Source: Bacteroidales bacterium (GTDB taxonomy: Bacteria; Bacteroidota; Bacteroidia; Bacteroidales; UBA932). Taken from it: a stretch of 46,549 nt of DNA. This document shows positions 4,970 to 32,694 of this stretch, piece by piece. The notes beneath the pieces were generated by a model. That model was not told the DNA's origin, did not search any database, and worked only from the letters and a program-made list of their open reading frames with translations. Made by a program: the position numbers and the translations under genes. Position 1 is the first letter of the stretch. Every line of letters starts with the position of its first letter. The DNA lies in the NCBI GenBank assembly GCA_017651225.1, contig JAGCDF010000067.1, positions 1 through 46,549 on the forward strand, in the 5' to 3' direction.

Positions 4970-6658
4970 ATGAAAAGAATCCTTTCCCTATATATCCTTC
5001 TCCTGCTGATGCCGCTGCTCTCCCTCCAGGGAGCGGAGCGGCTGCGCGAGCGCGTTTACCTCTCCACGGACCGCGATGTCTATGTGGCCGGCGACCGGGT
5101 CTGGCTGTCCGCCTGGTGCCTGGATGCCGGGACGGGTCGGCTCTCCGCATTCAGCAAGACGGCCTATGTGGAAGTCCATTCCCCGACCGGTATGGTCCAG
5201 ACGGCCAAGATCGCCCTGGACGGCGGGCGCGGCGCGGGTTTCCTGACCCTGCCCACCACCCTGCCCAGCGGCAACTACCGGCTCCTGGCCTACACCAGGC
5301 TGGGCGCCTCGGAAGAAGGATTTGATCCCCTCTCCGGCGTCCGGACGCTGTCCGTCTTCAACACCTTCAGCACGGAGCGCGTCGAGGACGGCGTGACGGT
5401 CGTCAAGCAGGCGCCCGACGCCCCAGCCGCAGTCCCCGCCAGCGGCTCGCTGCACCTCGAGGCCGGCAGCGCCGCCCCGGCCGGGACCACGCGCATCCGC
5501 CTGTCCAACGACGGGGCGGAAGCGGTCAGCTTCAGCCTGAGCGTCCGTCACGACGACGGCATCCCCGCACCGGCAGGCAAGCACATCGCCGACTTCGTCC
5601 GCGAGATCCGCGCCCTGCCGGCCGCCCGCGGCTTCGACGACAGCGTGGTGCCTGAATACGAAGGAGAAATCATCCGCGCACGCGTCATCGGAGAGAGCGG
5701 CGTGGGCGGGCAGGTCATGAACCAATACGCTTTCATCTCCTCTCCCGGCACCGGAGAGAATGTCTATTCCGAAGCCATCGACCCGGACGGCACGGCCACC
5801 TTCTATACCGCCAACATCTACGGCGACCGGGAGATGTTCCTCGAAATCGAGGGTCTCGACGCCGGTCAGTCCTGCCACCTGGAGATCCAGAGCCCCTTCC
5901 TGAACCTGCCGGTCGGCGACATCCCGGCCCTGCAGCTGTACGCCGGCTGGGCCCCTGCGCTCGAACTGCGGGGCCTGGGGATGCAACTGGAGAAGAATTT
6001 CAACGCGGACACGCTCTATGCCGCGCTCCCCGCCCGGGTCCACCGCATTTTCGACGAGCGCGAGCGCAAGCGTTACATCCTGGACGACTACACCCGTTTC
6101 CCGGTGATGGAGGAACTCTTCACCGAGTTTATCCAGGAAGTCCGCATACGGCGCATGAACGGTGGTCGCGGCCTGCAGGTCTGGCAGCCGGACCGGATGG
6201 GCAACTTCCTGTTCCTGCCGGGAAGCGCACTGGTCCTGCTGGACGGCATCCCCGTCCTGGACCATGCCAAGATCCTCGACTACGATCCCCTGCTGGTCAA
6301 ATACATTGACATCTACGCCGACAACTACCTGTTCGGCGCCCGGAGTTTCCCGGGCGTGGTGAACTTCATCACCTACAAGGGTTCGCTCCCCTCGATGCAG
6401 TTCGACAGCCAGGTCCGCGTCGCGGACTTCCAGGGCTGCGCCCTGCCGCTGGCCTACACCTGTGCCGGCGTGGGCGGCGACTATCCGGACTACCGCCAGA
6501 CGATCTACTGGCATCCGCTGCTGACCCTCGCCCCGGGCGAGAGCGTGGAGCTGGAATGCAAAACGCCCGCCTACAGCGGACGTTTCGATGTGGTCGCGGA
6601 AGGGCTGAGCGCCCGGGGCGAGGCCGTCTCGGCGCAGGCTACGCTGAACGTTCGATGA
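4970..6658 (+). CDS. Exported MG2/plug-like domain protein
   Basis: 562 residues, signal peptide MKRILSLYILLLLMPLLSLQ. The segment at about 26-115 (RVYLSTDRDVYVAGDRVWLS, then LPSGNYRLLAYT) is a macroglobulin MG2-type domain. Near 405-475 a TonB-plug-like stretch is seen (LVLLDGIPVLDHAKILDYDP, then FGARSFPGVVNFITYKG), and the end (YWHPLLTLAPGESVELECKT) resembles the C-terminal beta domain of these proteins. Relatives I know of are usually 800-900 residues, so this is a short version. It begins 12 nt after the DUF4249 stop and closes the four-gene cluster. Its last 20 bp overlap the end of the convergent glycosyltransferase gene. Role inferred: envelope partner of the receptor. Confidence 0.7.
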   Translation: MKRILSLYILLLLMPLLSLQGAERLRERVYLSTDRDVYVAGDRVWLSAWCLDAGTGRLSAFSKTAYVEVHSPTGMVQTAKIALDGGRGAGFLTLPTTLPSGNYRLLAYTRLGASEEGFDPLSGVRTLSVFNTFSTERVEDGVTVVKQAPDAPAAVPASGSLHLEAGSAAPAGTTRIRLSNDGAEAVSFSLSVRHDDGIPAPAGKHIADFVREIRALPAARGFDDSVVPEYEGEIIRARVIGESGVGGQVMNQYAFISSPGTGENVYSEAIDPDGTATFYTANIYGDREMFLEIEGLDAGQSCHLEIQSPFLNLPVGDIPALQLYAGWAPALELRGLGMQLEKNFNADTLYAALPARVHRIFDERERKRYILDDYTRFPVMEELFTEFIQEVRIRRMNGGRGLQVWQPDRMGNFLFLPGSALVLLDGIPVLDHAKILDYDPLLVKYIDIYADNYLFGARSFPGVVNFITYKGSLPSMQFDSQVRVADFQGCALPLAYTCAGVGGDYPDYRQTIYWHPLLTLAPGESVELECKTPAYSGRFDVVAEGLSARGEAVSAQATLNVR

Positions 6659-7841
6659 GCGGCAGGCCGCGGCTGCGCAGCAGCGCATTGTAGCGGTCGA
6701 TCACCTCTTCCACGCAATCTTCCCACGAGCGGACAAGGGTCTTGGACGCCTGCACGCCCACGCGATGCACGCGTTCGGGGTCGTGGATCAGCTCCCTGAG
6801 GAGTTGCGCCAGCTTGTCCGGGTCATTCTCCACCAGGAAACCGTTTTCGCCGTCATGAAGGACAGCGGAGGCCGTTGATCCGATCGCCATGACCGAAGGC
6901 GTGTGCAGGGCCGCGGCTTCGCGCACGACGAGCGGCGCGTTGTCGTAGAGCGAGGGGAAGACGAACAGGTCGGAAGCGGCGTAGTAATCGACGATCTTCG
7001 CGCGGTCGGTGATGGTGCCGACGAAGGTCACTTTGCCGTCCAGGCCCTTTTCGCTGACCATCGCCTTCATCTCCTCGGCGGCATAGCCGTTGCCCACGAA
7101 GAACATCTTGAACGGGACGTCGTCCAGGCGGGACAGCGCCTCGATGGTCAGCTGCGGATTCTTCTGCCAGATGTGCTGGCCCACGAAGAGCAGCACGAAC
7201 TCCTCCGGGGCGATGCCCAGCCGCTGCCGGGCCTCCACGAAGTATTTCTCGGGATAGTCCGCCACGAGGTCGGAACCGTTGTCCATCACCTCCACGTGGC
7301 CTTTGTAGCCATACTCGCGGATCACGTCGATGACGGACTCCTGCGGCACCCAGACCAGATCGGCGCGCTCGAAGAAGTCGACGACCGAGTCGATCACCAT
7401 GTCCACGACGATCTTCGGAAGGAGCTTGCCGAAATCGTCCCGGTACTTGGAGTGGAACGTGGCCACTAGCGGAATCTTCTGCAGCCGGGAGATACGCAGG
7501 GCCGCATTGCCGGCAGAGAAAGGCGTATGCGCGTGCACAATCTTGAAGCGCGTCGTGGCAATCTTGGCCAGGTAGGTCGGATCCATCTCAGCAACGCCCG
7601 TCACGTAAGGATGCCGTCCGGGGATGGGAATGGACATGTAGTCGAAGACCTTGTAGTCATGCACGCTGTAATCCGCCTTCGGGACGTGGGGCGTGACGAC
7701 GGCCACGCCGCCCACCTTCTTCTGCAGCCAGTTGGCGTAGTTCTCCATGCAGACGGACACGCCGTCCATCACAGGCGGAAATATCTCGCAGAAAAGGCCG
7801 ACATTGGCCTGTTCCGGATTGAATACGGTCGGTTTCGCCAT
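6639..7841 (-). CDS. Glycosyltransferase family 4 (GT-B fold)
   Basis: 400 residues without signal peptide. The N-terminal domain has the GT4 acceptor-side pattern (FCEIFPPVMDGVSVCMENYA, then HAHTPFSAGNAALRISRLQKIPLVATFHSKY). The C-terminal domain has the nucleotide-sugar half (LLFVGQHIWQKNPQLTIEAL, then SDLFVFPSLYDNAPLVVREA). In the usual E-x7-E motif the first acid is Asp (DNAPLVVRE). It resembles enzymes that glycosylate lipids such as diacylglycerol or phosphatidylinositol, but the acceptor cannot be deduced. It starts one base after the stop of the membrane protein at 7843-10077, so the two form an operon. Confidence 0.88.
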   Translation of the reverse strand: MAKPTVFNPEQANVGLFCEIFPPVMDGVSVCMENYANWLQKKVGGVAVVTPHVPKADYSVHDYKVFDYMSIPIPGRHPYVTGVAEMDPTYLAKIATTRFKIVHAHTPFSAGNAALRISRLQKIPLVATFHSKYRDDFGKLLPKIVVDMVIDSVVDFFERADLVWVPQESVIDVIREYGYKGHVEVMDNGSDLVADYPEKYFVEARQRLGIAPEEFVLLFVGQHIWQKNPQLTIEALSRLDDVPFKMFFVGNGYAAEEMKAMVSEKGLDGKVTFVGTITDRAKIVDYYAASDLFVFPSLYDNAPLVVREAAALHTPSVMAIGSTASAVLHDGENGFLVENDPDKLAQLLRELIHDPERVHRVGVQASKTLVRSWEDCVEEVIDRYNALLRSRGLPLIERSA

Positions 7842-28797: not shown

Positions 28798-29970
28798 TTA
28801 TCGGTTCCCTTTCGCGCGGTTATGCGTCTTGCACAGCATCTGGCAGTTGGAAATGTCGGTGGCGCCGCCTTTGCTCCAGGCCGTCACGTGGTCGGCATCC
28901 ATATCCTTGAGCTCCCAGATCTTGGTATGGTTCGCATCGTGGCCGATGGCGCAGAGCGGACAGTTGGATTCGCCTTTCTCCCTGGCGGCAGCGGTCTGCT
29001 GCGCATAAACGGCCTTCTTGGTCGGTTCATCGAAGACGCGTACGTTCAGCAGTTTCGTGTTCTGGCAGCCGTCCAGAATGTATTCGTAGATGCCTTTCTT
29101 CTCCTTAACGTAGAAACTCTCGTAGAGCTCCCGCACCTTGGCAGCCACCTCGGCGGGGTTGTAGGCCGTGCGGTGGTAGCGCTCGTAGAGTTCGCCCCAC
29201 TTCAGGCCGCACATCTCCTTCTCCGGTGTGATGTCGAACACGGAGGTAATCCAGTCGATCACGGAGGTGAAATAGGCCTTCAATTCAGCAATGCGGTCAT
29301 CATACCGATGCGCGGCCATGTACTCTTCCACATGGCCCCGGCTCACCCAGTCCAGTGCCGCTTCCAGGTAGTCCTGCCGCTTGGCGGAACCCGGGATGAA
29401 GCAGCTCCACTTGTTGATGTTGGTATTGTTGGAGTTGGAGAATTCTTCCTTGGCCTTGGTGACGAATGGGCCGCTGTACACGGCGTTCAGCGTCTCCTGG
29501 TTGTTCAGCGGGATGCCCACGATGTTGATGGTCCGGAACCAGTCCTTGATTTCTTTCTCCGTGCCTTCGCAAACGTAGATCAGCAACTTGGTATTTAGGA
29601 ACTTCTCCTGCTCATCCGGATTCAATGCGCTGAAGTACCACGGCCGCCCGTCGGCGTCGATCCAGGCGAATTTCTCAGTAAGGAATCGGCCCAGCGAGGT
29701 GATGCGCTGCTGGCCGTCGAGCACCTCGTAGCGGTCTTCACCGACTTTGGAGAAGTAGATGAGGCCCAGCGGATAGCCGTTGCGGACGGACTGGATTACG
29801 TCCACCTCCTTCTTGCCGCCGTTCTCGGCGTACAGGTAATGCCGCTGGAATTCCGGCTGTATGGTCAGCCGGCCCGAGAGGCCGTACAGCCCCTTGCCTT
29901 CGTATTCGTTATACTGGAACCCTTTGCAGATATCGCCAATGGTCCAATCGGTTACAAGTCGTGCTATCAT
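28798..29970 (-). CDS. DUF262 domain protein with C-terminal HNH nuclease
   Basis: 390 residues. The N-terminal DUF262 (GmrS/ParB-like) domain shows [13 protein letters not shown] (35-46) and the nucleotide-binding/catalytic-type motif [10 protein letters not shown] (84-93). The last 55 residues form an HNH nuclease with zinc-type cysteines (CPLC and, later, [13 protein letters not shown]) and [12 protein letters not shown]. The combination is typical of modification-dependent or restriction-type defence nucleases. Its start overlaps the methyltransferase stop by 4 bp (ATGA), so the two are translated together. Expected to cut DNA lacking, or carrying, the partner's mark; which one is unknown. 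Confidence 0.88.
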
Positions 29971-31082
29971 AGTGATTTTTGTATTTTCTTGATTACAATT
30001 CTTTCATACAGACGGAGCAATTGGCCATTCTCTTCTACGTAAAATCGTGGACCGCCTCCAGCTTTGCCTAGCCTCTTCTTAATAATGTTCATATCAGCAA
30101 GCTGCAAACTATGGCCAACAATCTCAAATTGCTCCGGGCAATATCTATCGAGAAATGAAATGGGAACACCCATAGCGCCATTATAATCATTAGGGATAGC
30201 ATCTGAGTAAGGCACCTCCAAAGCATCGTAATTAATGTAATGCCGGTACCCCGTCTCTTGGATTTCCCGGTGCTTACCAAAACGCTCATTGTCCTTCATG
30301 GACATGAGTTTCATTGATTCGTGCCGTCGTCCATGCTCAAGATTTGTAAACCATCTTACGCCTTTGACGCGGATGTACTTCTTTCCTTTTTCATCAACAC
30401 GCCATCCAGCAGCTTCGATCGGATAGGATTCTGGGACCATAAATTCTCGATCGCCACTGGATATAGAAGGGCCATACCACAATTTATTATCGCGGATAAG
30501 TGGGAAAACTTCCTTATAAGAAATAGCATTCATGCTACCGATAATAAGGATTTGTTTTTGGGCGGAAACACACCATGCCAAGAACTCCCGGAAAAGACTA
30601 AAGGGCGGATTCGTCACGATGATATCGGCCTGGTCGCGGAGGGCGCAGACTTCCGGGCTGCGGAAGTCACCGTCACCCTCAAGATAATGCCATTCCAGGT
30701 CATCGATGTCGATGCGGCCGCTGCCGTTGGTGTCACGGGTGAGTTCGAAGATCTTCCCCTTGATGCGGGTTTTGTCGATGTCGAACAGGGGGCTCTCCGT
30801 CTCGAAGAGGGTGGGCTCGTAGTCCTTGTACTTCTTGCTCTCGACGGCATAGGACGTGCTGATGAGGCGTTTCAGGCCCAGACGTTCGAAGTTCTGGGCG
30901 AAGAAACGGGTGAAGTTGGACCACTCGGGGTCATCGCACGGCAAGAGGACAGTCTTGTCGCGAAAGGTGTCCGGGTTGTACTCCAGATAGGCGTTGACCT
31001 CTTTTTGGATGTCGGCGTACTGGGTGTAAAACTCGTCGTTCTTGGCAGCCTTAGCGGCGCCAAGATTCGTGTTGTTGGCCAT
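29967..31082 (-). CDS. EcoRI-family adenine-specific DNA methyltransferase
   Basis: 371 residues starting [20 protein letters not shown], followed by QYADIQKE, a signature of the EcoRI methylase family. A cofactor-side motif [13 protein letters not shown] lies at 45-57 and the catalytic NPPF at 158-161 ([16 protein letters not shown]). The enzyme should methylate adenine N6 in a short recognition sequence. The recognition site cannot be read here; GAATTC is only the site of the founding member. Codons after about residue 160 (bases 29967-30610) are clearly AT-richer than the first part, as if two sources were joined at the NPPF motif. It is upstream of, and coupled to, the DUF262-HNH nuclease. 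Confidence 0.9.
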
Positions 31083-31139
31083 AAGCTGCGCTTCTCATGG
31101 CACTTGCGACTTAACTCGGTGGGGCTGGCAGGGCACAAC

Positions 31140-31258
31140 AAAAAAGGCATGGACTTTTCCAATCCATGCCCTGAGGCCCTGAGAAGCCCGCAACACTAGA
31201 TAAGTCGAGTCCACGCCTACGCGCAGACATTCACTGACCTATCCGGTGTATTGCTTTG
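31140..31258 (-). ncRNA. Structured RNA with terminator upstream of the methyltransferase
   Basis: On the minus strand three stacked stems form one long hairpin: 31254-31246 with 31196-31190 (7 bp, one bulge), 31243-31236 with 31206-31199 (8 bp) and 31228-31221 with 31216-31209 (8 bp) capped by a 4-nt loop. Three positions are G.U pairs on the minus strand but would be A.C mismatches on the plus strand, which fixes the strand. A terminator follows: GGCATGGA (31146-31153) pairs with TCCATGCC (31163-31170), and the U tract corresponds to A at 31140-31145. The transcript would be about 120-150 nt and the 5' end is uncertain. It may be a free small RNA or an attenuated leader of the methyltransferase operon, whose ATG is 58 nt beyond the U tract. 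No known family is recognised with certainty; a 6S-like RNA is one candidate. Confidence 0.6.
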
Positions 31259-31375
31259 TGAAATTTCTCAGGTTTCAGGGCAACCGAATAAATAGCAAAT
31301 GCTAAATTACTATATGTCTCCTCCTCTTCCGGGAGGCATCACAAATGTAAGAATTATCAGCGGAATAACAAGCAG

Positions 31376-31483
31376 TCCGGGCTTGACCCGGAATCTCGGT
31401 ACCGGAAATAGCCCAAATTGGTGCCGACCCAACTTTTATAACCAGGGTCGGCGCCATCAAGCGTCAAAAACGGCACCGAGATT
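31376..31483. repeat. Palindromic repeat and nested inverted repeats
   Basis: 31376-31392 is a short copy of the REP-like element (TCCGGG-CTTGA-CCCGGA). It runs into an outer inverted repeat, 31392-31404 with 31471-31483 (12 of 13 bp), which encloses an inner one, 31420-31430 with 31445-31455 (10 of 11 bp plus a wobble). The inner hairpin is followed by AAAAACGGC, recalling the tail of the 51-bp units at 14590-14691. No coding sequence fits; an open frame across it has no plausible protein. Confidence 0.7.
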
Positions 31484-31492
31484 TCCCATACT

Positions 31493-31711
31493 GACAGGTG
31501 TCCGGGAAAACGCCATTCTACGCAATATTTCTGGACACCTCCCCATGGTATTTATCGTTTTCCACTGTTTTCGCCGACAGGTATCCACTTTTTTTGCACC
31601 AGTGACCGATTTCCTGGACACCTGTCGGGTTGGGCTTGGGGTAAAGGCGATATTTGGGGAAGGTATATTTCCCCAAAACCCCTCCAACTGTGGGAAAAAA
31701 CACCCACAGTT
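31493..31711. repeat. Array of alternating AGGTGTCC/GGACACCT arms and two perfect hairpins
   Basis: GACAGGTGTCC (31493-31503) faces GGACACCT (31533-31540). CGACAGGTATCCA (31575-31587) faces TGGACACCTGTCG (31615-31627), 12 of 13 bp. Two perfect 9-bp palindromes follow: TTTGGGGAA (31653-31661) with 31669-31677, and AACTGTGGG (31686-31694) with 31703-31711. The segment is AT-rich compared with its flanks and gene-free. Confidence 0.7.
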
Positions 31712-31866: not shown

Positions 31867-32694
31867 CTAGTAATCCACTTCGCTGAGGAAAAGCGCGTTG
31901 CCCGGCGCCGATTCGCCGGCAAGGGAGCGCATCGTCATGCCGGACTGCGATCCGGCATCTGGAGATTCCGGGTCAAGCCCGGAATGACTATCCAGAGGGA
32001 GGATAAGCGACTGGAAGTCGGCGACGGAGCGCTTGCCGCGACCGACCTCGAGGAGCGTGCCGACGACGGCGCGGACCATGTTGCGCAGGAAGCGGTCGGC
32101 GGCGATGCGGAAGTACCAGTAGTCGTCGCCGCCGTCGCGCCCGGTGAGTTGCAGATGCGTGGGCGTGTAGCGGTGCCAGGCGGCCTCCGTGACCGTGCAG
32201 ATCGAGGTCTTGGAGTCGGCGCCCGTCTTCTCGAAGCAGCGGAAATCATGCTGGCCGGGCAGCGCCGCGGCGGCTTCGTTCATCGCGTCGAAATTCACTT
32301 CCGGGAAGGTGTAGAGGTAGGAAAACGCGTCCGCGAACGGGTCCTTCACACGATGCAGGAAATAGGTGTATTCGCGCCGCGTGGCGTCAAAGCGGGCGTG
32401 GAAATCCGGAGCCGCCGCGGCCACCTCGTGAATCACGATCGAACGCGGCAGCATGGCATTCAATTTGTAGCATAATTGATGCGTGTCAAGTTCCCCGGCT
32501 GCGTCAAAATGCGCGACGTAGCCGATTGCATTGACGCCCGTGTCAGTCCGGCCCGCGCCGGTCACGGCCACGGGAGCGTGCAGGAGGGTGGACAGGGTGC
32601 TTTCGAGCGCCTGCTGGACGCTCGGGGCATCGGGCTGGATCTGCCAACCGCAGAAGTCCGAGCCGTTGTACGAAAGCTTGACGAGATATCGCAT
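31867..32694 (-). CDS. truA: tRNA pseudouridine synthase A, with palindromic-repeat insertion
   Basis: 275 residues. TruA makes pseudouridine at positions 38-40 of the tRNA anticodon arm. The N-terminal pattern VKLSYNGSDFCGWQIQPDAP and the catalytic Asp 51 in GAGRTDTGVNA are intact; DFRCFEKTGADSKTSICTV and FLRNMVRAVVGTLLEVGRGK confirm the family. Between FQSLI and the conserved ending AGESAPGNALFL lies an extra stretch of about 20 residues (DSHSGLDPESPDAGSQSGMT, 235-254) encoded by a palindromic repeat. The reading frame remains open, so a working enzyme is likely. The gene is divergent from moxR, 18 bp away. Confidence 0.93.
   Translation of the reverse strand: MRYLVKLSYNGSDFCGWQIQPDAPSVQQALESTLSTLLHAPVAVTGAGRTDTGVNAIGYVAHFDAAGELDTHQLCYKLNAMLPRSIVIHEVAAAAPDFHARFDATRREYTYFLHRVKDPFADAFSYLYTFPEVNFDAMNEAAAALPGQHDFRCFEKTGADSKTSICTVTEAAWHRYTPTHLQLTGRDGGDDYWYFRIAADRFLRNMVRAVVGTLLEVGRGKRSVADFQSLILPLDSHSGLDPESPDAGSQSGMTMRSLAGESAPGNALFLSEVDY
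31934..31988. repeat. Double palindromic element inside truA
   Basis: Two stem-loops side by side: ATGCCGGA with TCCGGCAT, then ATTCCGGG (31965-31972) with CCCGGAAT (31978-31985). The 55-bp unit begins GTCAT and ends ATGAC. The second half is the same sequence family as 14764-14784 and 31376-31392. Confidence 0.8.

Follow-up and report, generated by a model that had tools for sequence, protein, structure and literature searches.

A covarying RNA family of the Bacteroidota and its candidate role as a two-state leader of restriction operons

In terminator/antiterminator leaders and riboswitches, one strand of the RNA has two mutually exclusive pairing partners, and there is a run of uracils (U-run) and a gene shortly downstream. 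It is a long-standing question how newly arrived restriction systems spare a naive host; the regulators known for this are controller (C) proteins and antisense promoters. Here we describe an RNA element in a 46,549-nucleotide (nt) stretch of DNA from a Bacteroidales bacterium (contig JAGCDF010000067.1; 'the window', to which all unlabelled coordinates refer). The element runs from ∼31335 to 31140 on the minus strand, 5′ of genes for an EcoRI-type adenine methyltransferase and a GmrSD_N/HNH protein, and belongs to a family of structured RNAs that occurs across the Bacteroidota.

The family resembles terminator/antiterminator leaders and riboswitches in its folded promoter-proximal domain, its two-partner strand, its U-run and its nearby gene. 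It differs from these in matching no known aptamer in Rfam, in preceding genes without a common pathway, in having both a kissing loop and a 5′ pseudoknot, and in an additional antisense leader that is found chiefly in restriction operons. For the EcoRI and Eco29kI restriction systems, antisense RNAs from reverse promoters are described in the available part of a review (PMC3874152). The likeness to these would lie in RNA-level control of restriction genes; unlike them, as there described, the family is sense-strand, upstream and structured, and stands before type I, II, IIG and III methyltransferases. In the window, too, the RNA lies upstream on the sense strand rather than arising from a reverse promoter, although no search for reverse promoters was made on the plus strand. 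The C proteins, as far as the available text describes them, are comparable in guarding the balance and timing of restriction genes but are proteins and not RNA.

A covarying RNA family

A preliminary description of the locus, made from the sequence alone, had proposed an unassigned minus-strand structured RNA with its own terminator, starting near 31258, with G.U pairs favouring that strand. The fold was borne out: minus strand 31258–31130 gave −58.6 kcal/mol compared with −38.1 ± 3.5 for 200 dinucleotide shuffles (z = −5.85, 0/200), and over 31305–31135 the minus strand folded better than the plus strand (−66.5 versus −56.5), in line with the G.U argument. The terminator hairpin and its six T residues are also present (Table 1). 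The proposed start has to be moved, as the 5′ third had been missed. Conserved sequence and pairing partners in homologues reach 31305, ∼45 nt further 5′, beginning at UAGCAUUUGCUAUUUAUUCGG, and the 5′ strands 31281–31275 (pairing with 31174–31168) and 31272–31265 (pairing with 31185–31178) fall outside the original segment. Upstream, at 31349–31342, is a TAnnTTTG box that we take to be of the Bacteroidota −7 type; such a box was found 8–75 nt 5′ of the RNA in 57 of 95 copies, compared with 4.8% of mononucleotide-shuffled windows. The RNA indeed appears unassigned. Searches against Rfam 15 (4227 families, including 6S-Flavo, a check the description had suggested) gave no match to it, with the window at the gathering score, the RNA region at E 10 and 20 diverse loci at E 1; unrelated or chance-level matches only were returned.

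A first homologue search with E up to 1 listed 63 genomes, mostly at chance level. A covariance model, R1, was built from 14 copies and contains the nested helices but not H1, H2, P1 or Talt (helix names as in Table 1). At E ≤ 0.001, and with the window's own genome included in each sample, R1 matched, within the order, 138 of 393 sampled genomes (88 of 206 genera) and, within the phylum, 22 of 247. There were up to seven matches per genome, a floor since seven candidates were scored per genome. The window's own genome has three; the third is weaker (E 2e-5) and precedes a 252-codon open reading frame (ORF), and its H1 and H2 loops are still complementary. A two-kissing-loop pattern was present in at least 116 stretches in GTDB genomes. 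Among the 80 listed are loci from Prevotella, Muribaculaceae, Alistipes, Phocaeicola, Porphyromonas, Tannerella, Pedobacter, Niabella and Larkinella, and R1 matches 79 of the 80, either over its full length or cut at an end (80 matches in all; two in L273, none in L249). The few records labelled as Kiritimatiellae or Firmicutes metagenome-assembled genomes may be mis-binned.

For the analysis of covariation, 182 model matches were reduced to 173, from which 96 copies of <80% identity were aligned without structure. The nine removed were broken, end-cut, contig-end or second matches, and included the intact-looking L043 and the mosaic L075. Covariation in homologues had been set beforehand as one of the tests on which the structured RNA would stand or fall, and it proved strong. 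In blind column statistics on the 96 copies, the H1–H2 loop–loop helix took ranks 1–5, Pb ranks 6–9, Pf rank 10, H2 rank 11 and H1 rank 13, followed by P1 (14 and 36) and the pairing of the Pf 3′ strand with the 3′ end, Talt (18 and 22); ranks 12 and 16 were out-of-register pairs inside the loop–loop columns. The loop CCUGAGAA (31272–31265) covaries with UUCUCAGG (31185–31178), for example as CCUAGG with CCUAGG and CUUGGC with GCCAAG.

The nested set of 41 pairs was paired in 84.1% of cells, with two-sided changes at 40 of the 41 pairs and 0/500 shuffles on all five measures; slid controls gave 34–47%. For an alternative set of 30 pairs (H1, loop–loop, H2 and Talt) the corresponding values were 89.5%, 27 of 30 and 0/500. 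On the alignment of 14 copies, RNAalifold chose the pseudoknot partner instead of the nested helices; P1 was therefore tested separately, giving 0/500 shuffles on three of the five measures and 3/500 and 207/500 on the other two. As H1, H2, P1 and Talt are absent from the search model, their pairing is not a product of how the copies were collected. A conserved covarying folded domain is thus present in the leader, as in riboswitches.

One shortened RNA (L063:716–883) was seen 5′ of a YhcG/DUF1016-type nuclease gene; it was apparently shortened by a deletion between two near-identical sequences, the 5′ strand of Pf and the 3′ strand of the terminator.

The genes that follow the RNA are diverse. 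Among 93 copies with sufficient flanking sequence, 72 have a same-strand ORF (≥60 codons) whose start lies no more than 30 nt before or 150 nt after the RNA end, a figure given without a chance rate. In the 66 copies selected for a spacing of 25–135 nt, the median distance from RNA to ATG is 59 nt. The 168 downstream proteins fell into 89 blastp clusters. EcoRI-type methyltransferases follow at 26 loci, 25 of them in the window's genus, and other methyltransferases are Eco57I/MmeI-like, type I, IIG, III or m5C (5-methylcytosine). Further genes encode TonB-dependent transporters with a CarboxypepD-like domain, proteins with a type IX secretion system (T9SS) sorting domain, and radical-SAM, secreted and transporter proteins; many other downstream proteins have signal-peptide-like starts, as judged by eye. 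The RNA had been put forward as a possible leader of a methyltransferase–nuclease operon; the leader position holds, whereas the RNA is not private to one such operon, as the family also precedes TonB-dependent, secreted and radical-SAM genes. At the family loci, the downstream genes were not coherent with a single ligand of the kind expected for a riboswitch.

At five loci (L019, L213, L217, L238 and L267) the RNA is followed by small ORFs that we presume to be HxsD-like or radical-SAM-system-like, that of L217 having no Pfam match; these genes are a possible second recurrent association besides restriction. At nine class-level loci (L133, L134, L135, L137, L138, L139, L145, L149 and L151) the downstream proteins form one cluster, with ORFs starting ∼225–420 nt after the RNA, unlike the spacing of other copies. 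The L138 protein has TonB Plug and CarboxypepD-like domains, and several loci of the cluster have a small divergent ORF upstream.

Alternative pairing of the RNA and its leader

The strand Pf3′–Pe3′ (31216–31199) can pair with Pf5′–Pe5′ or with the 3′ end, GUCCAUGC (31154–31147), and covariation keeps both pairings. Of the nine Talt1 pairs, seven persist in 88–96 of 95–96 copies and the other two in 50/96 and 74/96; all nine together are paired in 90.1% of cells. By comparison, five tested pairs of the window's local terminator hairpin are kept in 8, 10, 67, 22 and 15 of 95–96 copies. Because the Talt1 pairs are kept far more often than the local ones, the family-wide hairpin before the U-run is taken to be Talt, with Pf/Pe as its competitor. 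The predicted layout is that of an attenuator, with a mutually exclusive terminator and antiterminator.

We then considered the stretch between the RNA end and the ATG. For the 66 of 96 copies with an ORF start 25–135 nt away, this leader was scored against the 3′ half of its own RNA, relative to 100 dinucleotide shuffles of the stretch. In 26 of the 66 copies z was below −2. These comprised all 21 copies preceding a restriction methyltransferase (z from −2.7 to −9.0) and 5 of the 45 others (Fisher p = 7e-13). The stretch from terminator to ATG measures 51–75 nt in 20 of the 21 restriction copies. Of the five non-restriction positives, L168 stands before a SNF2-like helicase, L124 before a protein with a partial DarT match, L201 before a short protein that matches nothing in Pfam, and L163 and L127 before proteins with signal-peptide-like starts.

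The restriction class was defined by 15 PADLOC methyltransferase matches, from a run on 64 of the 66 copies (L190 and L207 were left out), together with six split Eco57I/MmeI-like methyltransferases missed by PADLOC. The six were grouped by blastp clustering, with Pfam applied to L013 alone, where the first ORF lies just below the MmeI_Mtase cut-off (26.3 versus 27) and the second matches Eco57I. They were classed as restriction after the leader scores were known; counting them instead as non-restriction gives 15/15 versus 11/51 (p = 3e-8). In controls on the 21 restriction copies with 40 shuffles, z fell below −2 in four copies for the leader against the 5′ half, in two for the coding start against the 3′ half and in one for upstream DNA against the 3′ half. 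Both same-genus non-restriction copies in the test lacked an antisense leader (L042, z −0.8; L056, z 0.5), and the antisense leader is therefore not simply a lineage trait.

An independent sample gave 9 of 11 restriction copies versus 15 of 47 others (p = 0.005). It consisted of 80 matches less 6 near-duplicates and 16 without an ORF in range, leaving 58. Its PADLOC tallies were made by group, with 25 of 34 families listed for the weaker group; sequence comparison named the nine positive and two negative restriction copies, and L233 (an NPPY motif, no matches) was counted as non-restriction.

In L109, a single hairpin is predicted to form from the 3′ half and the leader and to stop two bases short of the ATG. 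When the 5′ half is folded separately, this fold is ∼21 kcal/mol better than the native RNA plus a separate leader, and in 19 of the 21 restriction copies the equivalent fold is favoured, by 1 to 21 kcal/mol. Pairing with the 5′ end of the restriction mRNA, as in antisense control of the EcoRI and Eco29kI kind, is predicted in 21 of 21 copies. The G+C fraction upstream of the ATG is 0.50 in restriction copies and 0.20 in the others, values uncorrected for host genome composition. For the window itself, the preliminary description had paired arms beyond the terminator with the RNA and suggested that a read-through transcript could refold up to the methyltransferase start. All three pairings are exact: 31097–31090 (TGAGAAGC) with 31187–31180 (GCTTCTCA), 31134–31129 (GCCCTG) with 31173–31168 (CAGGGC) and 31113–31107 (TAAGTCG) with 31207–31201 (CGACTTA). 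Complementarity of this sort is moreover conserved, and enriched in restriction copies.

A related locus in another species, L075, is 96.9% identical to window positions 31600–31054 and then jumps to the equivalent of 28881, so that it lacks the methyltransferase gene and the greater part of the HNH gene. We considered whether its RNA had lost its pairing, and dropped the idea: there is one A.C mismatch and one G.U in the loop–loop helix and a bulge in Pb, part of Pd can pair, and the match scores 143 bits. The RNA is a mosaic of two variants; as a single case, possibly an assembly chimera, the locus is weak evidence, at most suggestive.

Proposed mechanism and rival explanations

The reading that we favour, and think probable from the conserved alternatives, is a bistable cis-acting leader in which a terminator gate is common to the whole family and restriction operons have a translation gate in addition. 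Our confidence that the RNA family exists is higher than our confidence in this two-state reading. In the model, the promoter-proximal domain (Pa, P1, the H1–H2 kissing helix and the closing helix Pb) would decide the fate of strand Pf3′–Pe3′. Where this strand pairs with Pe5′–Pf5′, the central hairpin would form, the U-run would have no family-wide partner and the polymerase would read through. Where it pairs with the 3′ end, a hairpin would form directly before the U-run and transcription would stop after ∼200 nt. Restriction operons would have evolved a second gate, the terminator–ATG stretch antisense to the 3′ half of the RNA. In a read-through transcript whose 3′ half has been released by the 5′ domain, a long hairpin ending near the methyltransferase ATG would hinder initiation; with the 5′ domain intact, the start region would be freer. 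We infer that the alternatives switch in vivo, that the 5′ domain binds a ligand or protein signal, and the direction of control. Given the diversity of the downstream genes, a general factor, perhaps a protein, seems a better candidate for the signal than a metabolite of one pathway.

Several observations weigh against this model. The central hairpin is stable and is the first to form as the RNA is transcribed, which obliges Talt to invade it; a local terminator hairpin is also present in the window's lineage. Among the helices, Pd is poorly supported (59.4% of cells paired), P1 is not above shuffles on one of the five measures, and the nested helices are in the search model, so that the selection of copies favours their paired fraction. 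As regards the second gate, leaders with z < −2 also occur in 15 of the 47 non-restriction copies of the independent sample and are missing from 2 of its 11 methyltransferase copies; the gate is therefore enriched in, and not exclusive to, restriction copies. The predicted openness of the start region differs only slightly (0.385 in restriction copies versus 0.481, p = 0.03). The 3′-half/leader fold is not favoured in L102 and L112, and the fold energies exclude the pseudoknot and kissing pairs, so that the native fold is understated. In the window copy itself, z (−2.7) ties for the weakest among the 21, and the fold of minimum energy is a mixture that places 14 bases of the leader on the 3′ half and 19 on the 5′ half. 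Finally, the lack of a common metabolic theme downstream argues against a simple metabolite riboswitch.

A broader proposal is offered tentatively, and we lean slightly towards doubting it. A phylum-wide class of leader RNA switch, unnamed in Rfam, may control accessory arms-race and surface genes; type I, II, IIG and III restriction systems may repeatedly have come under it and added a co-evolved antisense lock on the start codon. This would be an RNA counterpart of the controller proteins and could hold methyltransferase and nuclease expression in step on entering a new host.

The best-surviving rival, which we regard as unlikely, is a trans-acting autogenous brake. The terminated ∼200-nt RNA would accumulate, its 3′ half would pair with the read-through leader of its own operon and expression would fall, as with an antisense copy-control RNA. 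A terminator and a promoter-like box are present, and the complementarity is locus-specific: in 18 of the 66 copies, the copy's own leader outscores the other 65. However, a read-through mRNA has that 3′ half in cis, which makes self-pairing easier, the 3′ half of the free RNA is tied up in a very stable fold, and the complementarity is absent from most non-restriction copies.

Somewhat less likely again is a free structural or trans-acting small RNA with a general cellular role, for which the downstream gene would be incidental and the leader complementarity a relic of duplication. Conservation beside many different genes fits this explanation, as does the finding that 310 pairwise alignments across the RNA (≥80% identity) most often stop at the ends of the RNA itself. 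A same-strand ORF near the 3′ end in most copies is not expected of it, nor is leader complementarity that tracks restriction genes, nor several copies per genome beside different genes. The choice originally left open, between a free small RNA and a two-state leader, thus shifts towards the leader, with the free RNA less favoured.

That the element is the boundary of a mobile DNA cassette or a recombination site, its palindromes only RNA-like, we consider improbable. Several copies per genome, some close to contig ends, and accessory cargo genes are in keeping with such a cassette, as are a copy beside an ORF that we take to be integrase-like (L091) and another behind ORFs that are presumably integrase- and relaxase-like (L338). 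Against this, G.U-tolerant pairing favours one strand, the kissing and pseudoknot helices covary, the promoter-like box lies on the 5′ side and the U-run on the 3′ side, and no recurrent recombinase was seen among the ORF starts of 56 loci inspected by eye, without a family search. A mobile DNA element was disfavoured on similarity extents and neighbouring ORF starts. A chance palindrome with an ordinary terminator can be dismissed, being refuted by the family distribution, blind column ranks and covariation and having no support after the homologue search. A conserved upstream open reading frame was also considered and set aside, by inspection alone.

The locus, related RNAs and implications

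The host genome of the window is 1.87 Mb and 79% complete. The features of the locus are collected in Table 1.

Table 1. Features of the RNA element and the genes that follow it, in window coordinates
Feature	Position	Strand	Basis or remark
−7 promoter-like box TACATTTG (TAnnTTTG type)	31342..31349	−	Sequence; start at ∼31335 is a guess from the box
Pa, 5′ hairpin UAGC-AUUU-GCUA	31293..31304	−	91–95% of cells paired, 96 copies
Pseudoknot P1, 5′ strand UUAUUCGG; partner 31239–31246 CCGGAUAG	31284..31291	−	82.8% of cells paired
Pb, 5′ strand GCCCUGA; partner 31168–31174	31275..31281	−	Blind ranks 6–9; 72.5% of cells
H1 hairpin GAAA-CCUGAGAA-AUUUC; loop 31265–31272 pairs with H2 loop	31260..31276	−	Loop–loop, 93.9% of cells
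Pd, 5′ strand; partner 31190–31196	31248..31254	−	Weakest helix across families, 59.4% of cells
Pe, 5′ strand GGAUAGGUC; partner 31198–31206; bases in common with P1	31236..31244	−	
Pf, central hairpin GUCUGCGC/GCGUGGAC, proposed antiterminator	31209..31228	−	96.4% of cells paired
H2 hairpin GGGC-UUCUCAGG-GCCU; loop 31178–31185 kisses H1	31174..31189	−	88.7% of cells paired
3′ strand GUCCAUGC directly 5′ of U-run; partner is local hairpin or Pf 3′ strand 31209–31216 (Talt)	31147..31154	−	
Local terminator hairpin of the window lineage	31146..31170	−	Six T at 31140–31145
Leader from terminator to ATG	31083..31139	−	Antisense to RNA 3′ half; duplex −54.4 kcal/mol, z −2.7
EcoRI-type adenine methyltransferase (PF13651)	29967..31082	−	E 1.3e-129
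GmrSD_N + HNH protein, presumed nuclease partner	28798..29970	−	Domain matches

Two sets of repeats lie upstream of the RNA. A 25-nt inverted repeat, 96% complementary and of the CCGGGTCAAGCCCGGA type, has arms at 31373–31397 and 31962–31986; one arm is inside the C-terminal coding part of a tRNA pseudouridine synthase gene (31867–32694), which suggests a palindromic repeat element having entered a gene. Nested inverted repeats sharing GACAGGTGTCC / GGACACCTGTC occupy 31485–31634, between the RNA promoter and the pseudouridine synthase.

Elsewhere, two tandem RNA matches ∼50 nt apart were found at L169:2800–3172, and the rteR small RNA (Rfam RF04181) lies at L146:37–119, ∼1.4 kb from an RNA copy and on the opposite strand. 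At L091:2296–2440 (the same place as L014) the RNA copy is broken after its 5′ half, with the integrase-like ORF 312 nt downstream; an integrative element is possibly inserted in the RNA. The L338 copy (6594–6767) is on an apparent mobilizable element, and its downstream protein begins in the same way as that of L224, from Prevotella sp. MGM2. Searches by blastn with the window and L109 RNAs against phages, and with the L101 RNA against plasmids, gave no matches. A loop-pattern search of IMG/VR returned seven contigs with one pattern and none with another. In five contigs filed there as viral (L333–L337), the RNA lies 35–65 nt 5′ of an ORF containing MDFKDSI and GYDVFNPLEVVPEMDCDI, which we take to resemble the N-termini of restriction subunits; these contigs may be chromosomal.

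Other structured RNAs of the phylum were compared from the available parts of their descriptions. The FopS/GibS small RNAs of Bacteroides (PMC11697453) are alike in being a multicopy Bacteroidota RNA family. FopS acts in trans on SusC-like mRNAs and is described there as a single-stranded 5′ stretch with a terminator hairpin; identity with it was rejected on structure, as our family is long and nested and has a kissing helix. The 6S-Flavo, Bacteroidales-1, Flavo-1 and Pedo-repair RNAs (PMC2864571) are likewise structured Bacteroidota RNAs, and their covariance models gave no match at the gathering score in the window, at E 10 in its RNA region or at E 1 for the RNA of 20 diverse loci. We found no published description of the family in the literature searched, which covers few subscription papers and preprints. 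The main texts of PMC11109978 and PMC8632094, in the parts available, contain no Bacteroid- names, and a human-microbiome catalogue of thousands of candidates (PMC8040213, available in part) may hold unnamed fragments of the family. Small RNAs Rfp11–18 are also described from Flavobacterium psychrophilum (PMC9723704). The family would be a leader RNA switch, unusual both in its fold and in its additional lock, and new to Rfam 15 as searched.

A large covarying RNA family of gut, rumen and environmental Bacteroidota without an Rfam entry means that regulons have been missed in annotation. The occurrence of a common fold before unrelated genes points to one signal or one RNA-binding factor. If the switch model is true, it would provide an RNA mechanism for how very different restriction systems spare a naive host on arrival.
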